DNA of 64,000 nt from assembly GCA_002731275.1 (NCBI GenBank), contig PCBK01000098.1, positions 1 to 64,000 on the forward strand, written 5' to 3'. The notes beneath the pieces are model-generated. The model saw nothing but the letters and a program-made list of their open reading frames with translations. It was not told the DNA's origin and ran no database searches. Source of the DNA: Deltaproteobacteria bacterium. GTDB lineage: Bacteria; Myxococcota_C; UBA6777. Below are positions 14,165 to 20,997 of the stretch, in pieces. The translations under genes were made by a program, and so were the position numbers. Each line of letters opens with the position of its first letter. Position 1 is the stretch's first letter.

Positions 14165-15124
14165 TTGCTTTCGTCTTGTCTCGAAAAGCGATTAATTGTC
14201 AACATTGGCAAGGGAGGTGTCGGCAAAAGTATGCTGACAGCGGCGCTCGCGCGCTATGCGGCTTCCCAAGGTAAACGCGTTCTGATCTGCGAGGTCAACG
14301 CCAAAGATCGGATGGCCTCCTTGTTTGCCAAAGAGATCCCTTCCTCCATCGATACACTCGACCAGGTCTGGCAACTCGAAGACAACATCTGGACCGTCAA
14401 TATCCACCCCAATGAGAGCATGAAGGAGTATGTTGTTCAGGTCCTCAGGCTCAAGATTCTCTACAAAGTTGTCTTTGAAAATCAGCTCATGCAACAATTC
14501 TTGCGAGCGGTTCCTGGTCTTCAGGAGCTCGTGTACATCGGAAAGGTGTGGTTTCACACGACAGAGCTACGCAAGGACAACACGCCCCGCTTTGATATGG
14601 TCATCGTCGACTCTCCTGCCACAGGACACGGTCTCGCGATGCTGCGAATCCCCGATGTGATCGTTCGTACTGTTCCTGTTGGCCCGATGCACACGGCCGC
14701 GCAAAAGATCAAGGATGTCCTCGAAGATCCCACACAAACACAGCTCAATCTCGTCACATTGCCTGAGGAGATGCCGATCAATGAGACTGTTGAGTTGTAC
14801 CACTCACTCGCGAATGATCTGAACATGCACGCCGAACAGATCTTCATCAACCAGTGGCCCCATTCACCTTTCCAAGATTCACATCGTGAACAGTTTTCGA
14901 CTTTGTACGACCGAGCGATCGAACATCCGACGCTCGCGCCTTGGTTTGCGGTGGCCAAAGACGCACAAAAGAAGCACGAAAAAGCCAGTCGTTATTGCGA
15001 AAAGATCAAGGCCGACCTTGGACTCTCTCTTTTGACACTGCCCCACGTGTACGCACCTCCTTCCGAAGGAGATATTGTTTCCTCCCTCTCCCAAGAGCTG
15101 CTGGCTCGTCACACCGCACAATAG
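14165..15124 (+). CDS. ArsA/Get3-family ATPase, subunit A of a pair
   Basis: The 319-residue protein has the deviant Walker A GKGGVGKS at residues 15-22, including the signature lysine that in SIMIBI ATPases reaches across the dimer. The switch-II-like VDSPATGHGLAML corresponds to DTAPTGHTLRLL of Get3. There are no arsenite-binding cysteines or tail-anchor-binding features that I can identify. The start is a TTG with GGGAGG 4 nt upstream. The stop lies 9 nt before the second ATPase, so the two are cotranscribed and probably form a heteromer, as described for the paired ArsA-like ATPases of actinobacteria. The substrate is unknown. Confidence 0.82.
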   Translation: MLSSCLEKRLIVNIGKGGVGKSMLTAALARYAASQGKRVLICEVNAKDRMASLFAKEIPSSIDTLDQVWQLEDNIWTVNIHPNESMKEYVVQVLRLKILYKVVFENQLMQQFLRAVPGLQELVYIGKVWFHTTELRKDNTPRFDMVIVDSPATGHGLAMLRIPDVIVRTVPVGPMHTAAQKIKDVLEDPTQTQLNLVTLPEEMPINETVELYHSLANDLNMHAEQIFINQWPHSPFQDSHREQFSTLYDRAIEHPTLAPWFAVAKDAQKKHEKASRYCEKIKADLGLSLLTLPHVYAPPSEGDIVSSLSQELLARHTAQ

Positions 15125-15133
15125 GAGCGAGCA

Positions 15134-16339
15134 GTGTTACAAGAGTTGATGTCCGAGAAGCGATTGATCGTTTGCGCAGGCTCTGGAGGCGTTGGAAAGA
15201 CGACTGTGAGTGCGGCGCTCGCGCTCTCGGCTGCGTTGCAAGGTAAGAAAGCCTTGGTCGTCACCATCGACCCTGCAAGACGTCTCGCGAATGCGCTCGG
15301 CTTCGAAGAGTTTGGCAACGAAGAGTTTGAGGTGGATCTGAGCACGCTGACTTGTAAGGGGGAGCCTGTCACTGGCCAACTCTTTGCGATGATGTTGGAT
15401 CAAAAACTCACCTTTGACACTCTGGTCGAGCGATACGCTCCTGACGCTGGAAGCGCGCAGAGGTTGATGGAGAATCGCTGGTACCAACAAATGAGCTCCG
15501 CACTCGCAGGGGCACAAGATTATATGGCCGTTGAGAAGCTCTACGAGATGGCTCAAGAACGGGACTACGATCTGATCGTCCTCGATACACCTCCTACGAC
15601 CAACGCGCTGGATTTTCTCGAAGCACCACAGAGACTGATGGATATGTTGCAGTTACAGCCGATCCAATGGTTTCGCAAGGGTGTGGGAGGAGGAGGGACC
15701 GCGAGTCGATGGTTGCGTTGGGGAGGGTCTTCACTGATCAAAGCGCTGGGTCGAGTTGTCGGTGGAGAAGTCGTAGAGGAGCTCTCCACACTGCTTCAAG
15801 ACATGAGCATTCTTTACGATGGATTTAAAGAGCGCGCAGGGGAGATGTGGGGACTCTTGCGTTCTGATGAATGTGGTTTCTTTCTCGTCTCTGCACCCAA
15901 TCGTTCAGCGCTCAAGGAGGCCTTGTTTTTCCACCACAAACTGCTGGAGTCTGGGATGCCATTTTCTGGGATCTGGCTCAATCGTGTGAGAGGGTTTTAT
16001 CAGGACAAGCACACCTGGAGCGCGCTCCCCCAACAATTTTCTCGGCCTGACGAAGAGGCACTAGAAGTGCTGGCAAAAGAGATTTGTCAAGATGGTGAAT
16101 CGCTCGAAGATACGGTGGTTTTGTTGCGAGATATGTCCAGGCATTTTGGGCTGGAGTTTCAAGAGGTGGAACAAGCGCGAAAAGAAGTTGTCTTTTTGAG
16201 GGAGCAACTTGGGGAGGAGCCTTTTATTGGGTTGCTTCCTTTGATTCAAGAAGAGCTCCACGAGTTGGCTGGACTTGCTCACGTTGGACAGCTCCTGCTC
16301 GACGACGGCGTTGGCCCCTTGCTTGATGAGGCCATGTAA
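15134..16339 (+). CDS. ArsA/Get3-family ATPase, subunit B of a pair
   Basis: The 401-residue protein carries GSGGVGKT near residues 16-23. The signature lysine of the KGGVGKT motif is replaced by Ser. IDPARRLANALGF follows, a typical ArsA A-loop, and LDTPPTTNALDFL sits at switch II. A Gly-rich GVGGGGTASRW insert lies near residue 180. Starts at GTG with GGAG six bases upstream. Compared with its partner it is longer and lacks the intermonomer lysine, so the two sites of a heterodimer would be unequal. Cytosolic; role unknown. Confidence 0.82.
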   Translation: MLQELMSEKRLIVCAGSGGVGKTTVSAALALSAALQGKKALVVTIDPARRLANALGFEEFGNEEFEVDLSTLTCKGEPVTGQLFAMMLDQKLTFDTLVERYAPDAGSAQRLMENRWYQQMSSALAGAQDYMAVEKLYEMAQERDYDLIVLDTPPTTNALDFLEAPQRLMDMLQLQPIQWFRKGVGGGGTASRWLRWGGSSLIKALGRVVGGEVVEELSTLLQDMSILYDGFKERAGEMWGLLRSDECGFFLVSAPNRSALKEALFFHHKLLESGMPFSGIWLNRVRGFYQDKHTWSALPQQFSRPDEEALEVLAKEICQDGESLEDTVVLLRDMSRHFGLEFQEVEQARKEVVFLREQLGEEPFIGLLPLIQEELHELAGLAHVGQLLLDDGVGPLLDEAM

Positions 16340-17641: not shown

Positions 17642-19471
17642 TTAGTGAGTGGGGAGGAGGGGACCACAGAGAGGCGTGAGATCGATCTCTAGCGCGACGA
17701 TGGGGTGAGTCAGGCGCAGCTTCTCCAGCACCGAAGGATGAATTTCACCCATTACACCCAATTTATGTTCGTTCCAGTGGATCTCTGCGACACGTCCAGG
17801 GAGCATTCCCGGATGTTGACTGACCTTAAAGGTGAAGTGCATACCCATCTCATGTCCGAGCGCTTCGCAGAGAGCTTTGATGTCCGCAAAGCCCACCTCA
17901 GAGTCGATGATCCCCGCGGAGAGATGAACTTCTTCGATTGGCAACTCTTGTCCTTCGACACGTCGAACAACATCGTCGACCTCGAAGAGCCTTTGGGGTA
18001 GGCCTTGTCCGCGGTTGAGCGCGAACAACTTGAGGAGTTGAGGCATCAGCGAGGTGCGCAAGAGCGTCTGCTCAACAGAAGCGGGGTGTTTGATCAGGAC
18101 AGCTTCATCTGGATCGTCGAGGTTGAGCAGGTCATATTGCTCCTCGGCGTTACTCAGGATGAGGCTCATCACCTCGAAGAAGCCAAGTCCTGTCATCGTG
18201 TTGCGTGCTCTGTTTGCGATGACGCGCTCGGGACGTTCTTGCGCGACAGTCATCGTTGGGACGAGCACTGGGACGATGTTTTGGTAGCCGTAAGCGATCG
18301 CGAGATCTTCCATGAGATCGACTTCGTGCATGAGGTCGTTGCGGTAAGAGGCGACAGTGACTTCGAGGAAGCCTTCGCCATCTTTGTGTGGTCCAACTTG
18401 GTGTCTCATTTGGCGCAGGAGACCCATCGCTTTTTCGTCGTCGAGAGGGATACCGATCAAGCGAGAGCAGGCAGCGACGTCAAAGCGAAAGACCTCTTTT
18501 TCGAGGCTAGGGGTTTGCACTTTCTCTTTGGGCAACTGGACCTCGACGCGTTCGGCTTTTGCACCTGGAAACAGCTCAAGCATGGAGGTGACGATGGTGT
18601 GAAGTGTCTTGGTGACAGCCTTCTGTGTGATCCCTGTTACATCGATGAAGACGTCTTTTGTGTCGATGGTCACGCGCGTCTCATGTGAGTTGATGATCGG
18701 AGGCATCGACAAGACTTGTTCGTTTGCGTCGATAAGCATGGGGACGTGGGTGTAACCATCGAGTAGGTTGGCGAATGCGACCCCTTTGGGGTGCGTTTCG
18801 AGGACCTCTTGGGGCGTCTGCTGTTGGTCGGGGACAAACAAGGGTGTAAAGCGGAGACCTTCTCGCTCAACAGCCGTATATTTTAGGGGGCCGTTGATCG
18901 TCGAGAGGTCATAGACGCCGATAGAGGCGAGTTTTCTGTTTCGACCAAGCGCCCAGTGTAAGTTCTCTTGGAGCTTCATCACGAGGCGGAGGCTGAAGTC
19001 GTCAAAGGAGAGCCCTCTGATGACTGCGCAGCCGATGTATGGGCGGTAGGAAGACTCTTCTTGTACGATTGGATCGACGGTCAGTGAGAGCTGCGCGTCT
19101 CCAATTTGGTAGTCTGGGAGTCCCGTTTTCAAGTCGAGGAGACCGCGAAGCGCGCGGCTCAAGCCGCCTGGGTCGAAGATGTCAGGGCGGACGGGGAGCA
19201 GGTCCATACGGACGACATCTTCGTTGCCAAGATCGCTCCAAAAGTCGGCTTTGTCATCTGTATGACCGCACTCTGTGCAGCGGTTGGGCATCTCTTCGTT
19301 GAGTGTGAGCTCGCGCAAGTTGTTGCAAACGTTACATTGAATACGTCTGATCTGCGTGAACTCCTCGATATCACAGCCGAGCTGTTCGAGGCGTAGCTCC
19401 ATCTCTTCGTTAGAGAGCTGTGTATTGAGGCGACGATTGAGGTCTTCGATAGGGATAGCGACTACTGGCAT
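17642..19471 (-). CDS. pheT: Phenylalanyl-tRNA synthetase beta subunit, archaeal/eukaryotic type, with zinc-ribbon insert
   Basis: The 609-residue protein is far shorter than the roughly 800-residue bacterial PheT and lacks the N-terminal EMAP-like and C-terminal anticodon-binding (FDX-ACB) domains. It matches the archaeal form: N-terminal MPVVAIPIEDLNRRL, LLPVRPDIFDPGGLSRALRG, the B3/B4-like region, a B5 domain, and a catalytic-like end at LGVMGEIHPSVLEKL. Unusual is CNVC at 46-49 and CTEC at 65-68, a CxxC-x15-CxxC zinc-ribbon candidate inserted early in the protein. The ATG at 19471 overlaps the pheS stop by 10 nt and has AAGGAG 8 nt upstream, so translation is coupled. Confidence 0.9.
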   Translation of the reverse strand: MPVVAIPIEDLNRRLNTQLSNEEMELRLEQLGCDIEEFTQIRRIQCNVCNNLRELTLNEEMPNRCTECGHTDDKADFWSDLGNEDVVRMDLLPVRPDIFDPGGLSRALRGLLDLKTGLPDYQIGDAQLSLTVDPIVQEESSYRPYIGCAVIRGLSFDDFSLRLVMKLQENLHWALGRNRKLASIGVYDLSTINGPLKYTAVEREGLRFTPLFVPDQQQTPQEVLETHPKGVAFANLLDGYTHVPMLIDANEQVLSMPPIINSHETRVTIDTKDVFIDVTGITQKAVTKTLHTIVTSMLELFPGAKAERVEVQLPKEKVQTPSLEKEVFRFDVAACSRLIGIPLDDEKAMGLLRQMRHQVGPHKDGEGFLEVTVASYRNDLMHEVDLMEDLAIAYGYQNIVPVLVPTMTVAQERPERVIANRARNTMTGLGFFEVMSLILSNAEEQYDLLNLDDPDEAVLIKHPASVEQTLLRTSLMPQLLKLFALNRGQGLPQRLFEVDDVVRRVEGQELPIEEVHLSAGIIDSEVGFADIKALCEALGHEMGMHFTFKVSQHPGMLPGRVAEIHWNEHKLGVMGEIHPSVLEKLRLTHPIVALEIDLTPLCGPLLPTH

Positions 19472-20997
19472 AACGCAAGCTCCTTCAACCAGTCGAGTTG
19501 GCTCAGATAGAGGTGGCGGATATCTTCTACGCGGTAACGGATCATGGCGAGACGTTCGAGTCCAAGACCCCACGCGAGGACAGGGACATTGACGCCTGCT
19601 GGGCGGATGACTTCTGGGCGGAAGACGCCTGCACCACCAAGCTCAAACCACTCTTTGCGTCCGGGCATACGGACGAAGACCTCAACGGAAGGCTCTGTGT
19701 AGGGGAAGAAGGCTGGACGGAATTTGATCTCTTCAAAGCCCATCTGTCTGTAGAACTCTGTCAGTGTCCCGAGCAAGTGGGCGAAGCTCGCGTGCTCATC
19801 GACGATAATACCGTCAACTTGGTGGAATTCGGGCAAGTGCTTGTAGTCGATCGTCTCACGACGGAAGACGCGCCCAACACAGAACACCTTTTGGGGTGGG
19901 TTGGGGTTTTTGTGACAAGCTTCGACGGTGACGGCTGTGGTGTGGGTCCGAAGGACGACCTGCTTGGCTTTCTCTTCGTCCCAGTCGTAACGCCAACCTG
20001 TCGAACCTGTTTCACCACCATCTTCGTGGATTTGTCGAATGGTCTCGACCAGTTCTTTGTCTGGAAGGCTGAATGTGCCGGGATTGGCGCAGTAAAATGT
20101 GTCTTGCATTTCGCGCGCAGGGTGATCTTGGGGTTGGAATAACGCGTCGAAGTCCCAGAAGGCGCTCTCGACGTAGGGGCCACGGATCTCTGTGAAGCCC
20201 ATGTTAAGGAACGCGCGGCGTGTCTCTTCGAGGACACGTCGGAGAGGGTGTGCCTTTCCTGCGTACACAGGAGCGGTGTCGAGCTGAATGTCGTACTCGC
20301 GGAAGGTGACGTTTTTCCACTCACCAGAGAGCATCATCTCTTCAGTCAGCTGGTTGACGAGTTTGATCTCTTCCACGCCATCTTTGAGCAGCTGTCGACC
20401 TGTCTCTGTCAGGCGGACGGAGCGTTGTTTACGTGTACGAGTCTTGGCATATCCACGTGAACGAAGGCCTTTGAGTACGTTCTTGTTGGCTTTGCTGTTG
20501 GCTTCTTCGCTGTTGAGCAAGATGGTCCCGTTGGACTCTCCGAGTCGCCGCAGGAGGGCTTCGTCAGCTTGCTCCGCGTCGATGTCTGCGTCTTGTGGTG
20601 CGAGGGCTTTGCCTTCTTTGCGGGCGTATCCTTTGGAGAGGACGAAGCGCAGCGTTTTACCAACTTCTTGTGGACCAACGCCCAGGGCACCAGCGATGTC
20701 TGGTGTACCCATCGCCTCGCCTTTCTCTTGGAGTAGCTTGGCGATGCGTTTTTCAAGGAGGGGTTCATTCGAAGCGAGCAAAGCTTGTCCAGCTTCTTCG
20801 AGGGTCAACTCTTCGAATTCGTCTTCTTGTATGTCGATCAGTGATTCTTCTGAAAATCCGGTGCAAACGGCGCTCACTTTTGATTGATCAAGATCGAGTG
20901 TGGTCGCTAGCTCGGTCATTTTGTGCCAGGTCTCTGCGTCGGCCTTGCCCAAGTGGGTCAGGAGCTTGTACGCATGACTTTGCAATTGGCGCTTCAT
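19462..20997 (-). CDS. pheS: Phenylalanyl-tRNA synthetase alpha subunit, archaeal/eukaryotic type
   Basis: The 511-residue protein has an N-terminal region of about 230 residues with winged-helix character and a class II catalytic core of the archaeal type. It shows HPLRRVLEETRRAFLNMGF, then GPYVESAFWDFDALFQPQD, motif 2 as VFRRETIDYKHLPEFHQVDG, and motif 3 as VLAWGLGLERLAMIRY. Bacterial PheS proteins are about 330-350 residues with a coiled-coil N-terminus, which is absent here. With PheT it charges tRNA-Phe. AAAGGA at suitable distance supports the ATG at 20997; an upstream in-frame start at 21087 also exists. Confidence 0.9.
   Translation of the reverse strand: MKRQLQSHAYKLLTHLGKADAETWHKMTELATTLDLDQSKVSAVCTGFSEESLIDIQEDEFEELTLEEAGQALLASNEPLLEKRIAKLLQEKGEAMGTPDIAGALGVGPQEVGKTLRFVLSKGYARKEGKALAPQDADIDAEQADEALLRRLGESNGTILLNSEEANSKANKNVLKGLRSRGYAKTRTRKQRSVRLTETGRQLLKDGVEEIKLVNQLTEEMMLSGEWKNVTFREYDIQLDTAPVYAGKAHPLRRVLEETRRAFLNMGFTEIRGPYVESAFWDFDALFQPQDHPAREMQDTFYCANPGTFSLPDKELVETIRQIHEDGGETGSTGWRYDWDEEKAKQVVLRTHTTAVTVEACHKNPNPPQKVFCVGRVFRRETIDYKHLPEFHQVDGIIVDEHASFAHLLGTLTEFYRQMGFEEIKFRPAFFPYTEPSVEVFVRMPGRKEWFELGGAGVFRPEVIRPAGVNVPVLAWGLGLERLAMIRYRVEDIRHLYLSQLDWLKELALCQ

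Follow-up and report, generated by a model that had tools for sequence, protein, structure and literature searches.

Archaeal-type phenylalanyl-tRNA synthetases (PheRS) are known from one branch of bacteria, the spirochaetes (Borrelia, Treponema, Spirochaeta), which carry them in place of the bacterial enzyme after both subunits were transferred together (Andam and Gogarten 2011; PMC3191353). Cross-domain replacement of a core translation enzyme is rare, and the spirochaete branch is the textbook case for PheRS (PMC3191353). Here we describe a second case, which extends over several bacterial phyla and comes with a clean molecular marker.

Architecture and type of the enzyme

The window, which is the whole 64,000-nt stretch of DNA that was analysed, carries a pheS-pheT pair on its reverse strand. 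The subunit lengths and the PheS core string HPLRRVLEETRRAF agree with an earlier note on this DNA. The genes overlap by 10 nt, since the pheT start codon (ATG) lies that far upstream of where the pheS stop codon (TAG) ends. The features of the pair are as follows.

20997-19462 (-), pheS, archaeal-type PheRS alpha subunit, 511 aa (NF003210, 564.5 bits; TIGR00468, 401.6 bits)
20356..20997 (-), PheS N-terminal region, residues 1-214, expected to hold tRNA-binding winged-helix-like modules (within the NF003210 match, residues 4-508)
19480..20295 (-), PheS class II catalytic core, residues 235-506, with motifs FRRETIDYKHLPEFHQVDG and GLGLERLAMIRY (PF01409, 5.3e-93; alignment columns conserved)
19471-17642 (-), pheT, archaeal-type beta subunit, 609 aa (TIGR00471, 452.6 bits; AlphaFold2 model, pLDDT 92.7)
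19220..19351 (-), PheT zinc-ribbon-like insertion in the N-terminal domain, about residues 41-84 (Cys46, Cys49, Cys65, Cys68)
18599..18925 (-), PheT B3/B4 editing domain, residues 183-291 matched (PF03483, 2.4e-08)
18284..18487 (-), PheT B5 domain, residues 329-396 (PF03484, 3.8e-22)
17678..18262 (-), PheT catalytic-like module (CLM), residues 404-598 (PF17759, 1e-46)

The window's PheRS is archaeal-type, a classification supported by family models, domain content, fold and the trees of both subunits, and the earlier note had called it correctly. PheS exceeds the 350-bit cut-off of NF003210, the NCBIfam model of archaeal/eukaryotic-length PheS, and PheT exceeds the 282.65-bit cut-off of TIGR00471 (pheT_arch). 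The bacterial PheST of E. coli and Thermus (TIGR00472) has the reaction and the class II core in common with the window's enzyme. However, window PheT reaches 148.8 bits against TIGR00472 (pheT_bact), below the cut-off of 402.65, and a Pfam search finds in it only the B3_4, B5 and CLM domains. Neither tRNA_bind (EMAP-like) nor FDX-ACB is found, in line with the note's reading, and the protein ends shortly past the catalytic-like module.

Archaeal PheRS (TIGR00471, NF003210; Pyrococcus horikoshii 2cxi) agrees in length, domain order, and catalytic and editing modules, and window PheT is 31-40% identical to archaeal rows; in contrast, the Cys4 insertion of window PheT is absent from the archaeal rows. 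Eukaryotic cytosolic PheRS (human 3l4g, 8s8b) has the same architecture without FDX-ACB and supplies the best PDB sequence matches; its PheT is about 27-28% identical and falls outside the window's clade. The closest solved structures are eukaryotic cytosolic and Pyrococcus PheRS chains. The AlphaFold2 model of PheT (mean pLDDT 92.7) has cytosolic eukaryotic PheT chains as its top matches, and it superimposes on the Pyrococcus PheT fragment 2cxi with a TM of 0.95 over that fragment.

The active-site motifs and the B3/B4 domain are recognizable in the sequence of the window's PheRS. By homology, the enzyme would be an (alpha-beta)2 assembly in which the PheS core carries out both the formation of Phe-adenylate and the charging of tRNA-Phe, while the B3/B4 domain of PheT would edit mischarged Tyr-tRNA-Phe. 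The N-terminal modules of PheS may substitute for the bacterial tRNA-binding domains that PheT is missing.

Two bacterial lineages of archaeal-type PheRS

We surveyed 386 bacterial genomes, spread widely over families, and found archaeal-type PheT in 24 of them, in two separate clades. The window's clade contains 14 genomes from seven families and the other clade contains 10 genomes from seven other families, so that the second lineage is about as frequent in the sample as the other one. The window's clade includes Planctomycetota (among them the isolate Thalassoglobus neptunius), Eisenbacteria, Fermentibacteria, Gemmatimonadota, Acidobacteriota, WOR-3 and Myxococcota/Deltaproteobacteria, where the names of single metagenome-assembled genomes (MAGs) may be wrong. 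The other clade probably holds the known spirochaete enzyme (PMC3191353); it differs from the window's clade in its archaeal neighbours in the tree and in having no insertion. The earlier statement that the archaeal form is otherwise known mainly from spirochaetes fits the literature found (PMC3191353), but it understates the spread, as the window is part of a distinct bacterial lineage that spans several phyla. The literature searched, which took in a minority of subscription journals, yielded no published description of this second lineage; a paper about archaeal tRNA identities among CPR bacteria concerns TyrRS and TrpRS, not archaeal-type PheRS. As far as could be found, the type of event was known already, and what is apparently new is the independent lineage, together with its reach and the zinc-ribbon marker.

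The phylogeny of both subunits, which the earlier note had proposed as a check, places the window's clade among archaea and not within bacterial PheST. Of the careful trees, that of PheT has 83 rows, 47 of them archaeal, and that of PheS has 79, 40 of them archaeal. In both trees the window's clade and the other bacterial clade each receive 100/100 support and lie among archaea, and the rows of standard bacterial PheST split off from the archaeal-type rows with 100/100 support. Quick trees of both subunits give the same two bacterial clades. The long eukaryotic PheS row changes position between the quick and careful trees and was not used. AU tests on PheT gave p-values that are only moderately small, from trees with some long branches and varying letter composition: forcing both bacterial clades together was rejected (39.5 log units worse, p-AU 0.0189), and so was archaeal monophyly without the bacteria (p-AU 0.0251). 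Neither the PheT nor the PheS tree picks out a single archaeal group as the donor.

We hold with high confidence that the pair is the only, working PheRS of its host, that it is archaeal-type and was gained from an archaeon separately from the form in the other bacterial clade, and that the ribbon was gained and the pair then spread. An ancestor of the bacterial lineage would have taken both subunits together from an archaeon, in an event separate from the one behind the other clade. During the transfer or shortly afterwards, a zinc-ribbon module would have been added to the N-terminal domain of the beta subunit, after which the pair would have spread over several bacterial phyla.

Two other histories deserve weighing. 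One old transfer may lie behind all archaeal-type bacterial PheRS, with the zinc ribbon lost in the other branch or never having reached it. Both clades are indeed bacterial and archaeal-type, and support for the deep branches among archaea in the PheS tree is weak. We nevertheless judge a single transfer improbable, because the joint PheT clade is the topology rejected above, the other clade joins a different archaeal set in the PheT tree (90/77), and the two clades are separate in the quick and the careful PheS tree as well. The very wide and scattered spread over bacterial phyla also invites a reading as old bacterial inheritance, in which an ancestral duplication or a very early form was kept in scattered phyla. 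This history is very unlikely, as the clade nests within archaeal sequences whose monophyly without bacteria is rejected, and the branching inside the clade ignores phylum names, with Planctomycetota appearing in two places, one of them together with Myxococcota-named MAGs.

The synthetase gene complement and its context in related genomes

The window's genome is a 10.75-Mb MAG (94.65% complete, 5.5% contaminated), and the phylum comparison covers five genomes, this MAG and four relatives (G001-G004). In a profile search of the MAG, the window's pheS and pheT are the only PheS and PheT above the family cut-offs. The archaeal-type pair is present in three of the four relatives (G002, G003 and G004), with gene order partly kept, and the profile search finds no bacterial pheST in the window's assembly or in any of these three. 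Consequently, the archaeal-type pair stands in for the standard enzyme, which is what the earlier note had expected of a genome without bacterial pheST. A bacterial pheST could have been missed in an incomplete MAG, though its absence from three relatives makes such an omission unlikely.

One further, weak PheT-like match in the genome (C3:244117) is not pheT: by its sequence, it falls in the OB domain of an RNA-ligase-like ORF. This ORF of about 500 aa carries its OB domain, which resembles the bacterial PheT tRNA-binding domain, at the N-terminus (G000:C3:244117-244353); similar matches, also of about 500 aa, occur in G002, G003 and G004.

The surroundings of the pair are conserved on different sides in different relatives. 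G003 has BPI-like and MopE-like genes in common with the window on the pheS side, whereas G004 has the other side in common, with formyltransferase, RsmB, ArsA-like and TPR genes. Because the pair recurs in three relatives, with neighbours that partly match in G003 and G004, misassembly is not a reasonable explanation; and that the pair is any kind of contamination or assembly artefact is scarcely credible even in a MAG with this level of contamination, given its place on a 156-kb contig, its GC content of 54.7% against 51.6% for the window, and orthologues with common neighbours in MAGs that come from different projects.

Two minor observations concern these neighbourhoods. Two adjoining ArsA/GET3-like ATPase genes lie near pheT in the window (14165-16336, +) and are near pheT in G004 too. 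In G003, the gene that follows pheT contains a region of about 100 bases (L157, ~15109-15224) that resembles many G003 contigs at 70-90% identity and is perhaps a repeated low-complexity coding segment.

The remaining relative, G001, belongs to the same genus as G003 and is without the archaeal-type pair. The genes on either side of pheST in G003 are direct neighbours on G001 contig C326, separated by an N-free gap of about 326 nt. A bacterial pheST is found instead on the 6-kb contig C266, next to a gene whose G003 orthologue is 59% identical over 382 aa; no bacterial pheST lies beside the corresponding orthologue in G003. Contamination as the source of the G001 bacterial pheST is disfavoured by this neighbour's orthologue and by the loss of the archaeal pair from its ancestral site, which together favour a real swap. 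In this one fragmented MAG, the archaeal form thus appears to have been replaced by bacterial pheST. The evidence is consistent with the archaeal and bacterial PheRS being interchangeable, and the swap suggests that, in nearly the same host, either form can take the other's place.

The PheT insertion and the tRNA-Phe substrate

The feature that sets the window's clade apart lies in the N-terminal domain of PheT, as an insertion of about 44 aa found in 35 of 35 clade rows (these contain a few duplicates, some genomes having been reached by two routes) and absent from all 57 rows outside the clade (47 archaeal and 10 from the other bacterial clade). The linker between the N-terminal anchors is 53-60 aa long in every clade row, compared with 13-22 aa in the 47 archaea and 15-17 aa in the 10 rows of the other bacterial clade. 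In a wider set of 100 archaeal genomes, PheT mostly matches its profile from the first positions and over an ordinary span, with no sign of the insertion. To judge from these alignments, the insertion is diagnostic for the window's clade. We found no description of it in the literature searched, again with a minority of subscription journals covered.

A CxxC...CxxC pattern is present in 30 of the 35 clade rows and in none of the 57 outside rows. Window PheT keeps all four cysteines (Cys46, 49, 65 and 68) within an insertion that AlphaFold2 models at a pLDDT of about 80-90. The cysteines have decayed in G002, G004 and family f17, which speaks against a strict need for metal. As a guess, the predicted zinc ribbon may help to hold the bacterial tRNA; a purely structural role is equally plausible.

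We now turn to the substrate. Two tRNA-Phe(GAA) genes were found in the window's genome, with the features U20, G10-C25, A26, G27-C43, G44, U45, U59, U60 and A73. These are identity features of bacterial tRNA-Phe, while in archaea and eukaryotes tRNA-Phe tends to carry G20. The tRNA-Phe of this cell is of the bacterial type, and the cell's sole PheRS is archaeal-type; the archaeal-type enzyme therefore appears to charge a bacterial-type tRNA. The finding turns the reading of a bacterial tRNA by an archaeal synthetase into a testable question.

A bolder account joins the insertion and the substrate, and we offer it only tentatively, as a possibility that we would not at present favour. According to it, the second lineage arose independently of the spirochaete transfer and was founded with a new zinc ribbon, which would allow the archaeal enzyme to recognize bacterial tRNA-Phe, with its U20 and its bacterial anticodon-stem features, even though the tRNA-binding domains of the bacterial enzyme are missing. 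The pair would then have moved between at least seven bacterial phyla and been swapped back for the bacterial enzyme in one relative.

The window's genome has some other tRNA genes of note. About 10 short tRNA-Met(CAT)-like genes stand in tandem within 1 kb (G000:C121:35550-36700). Dense clusters of 13 and 8 tRNA genes (G000:C65:1-1500 and G000:C200:28200-29020) perhaps mark phage contigs in the bin. Finally, a tRNA-like gene on a 59-kb contig (G000:C5:45742-45815) has TTA as its anticodon and would decode the stop codon TAA.
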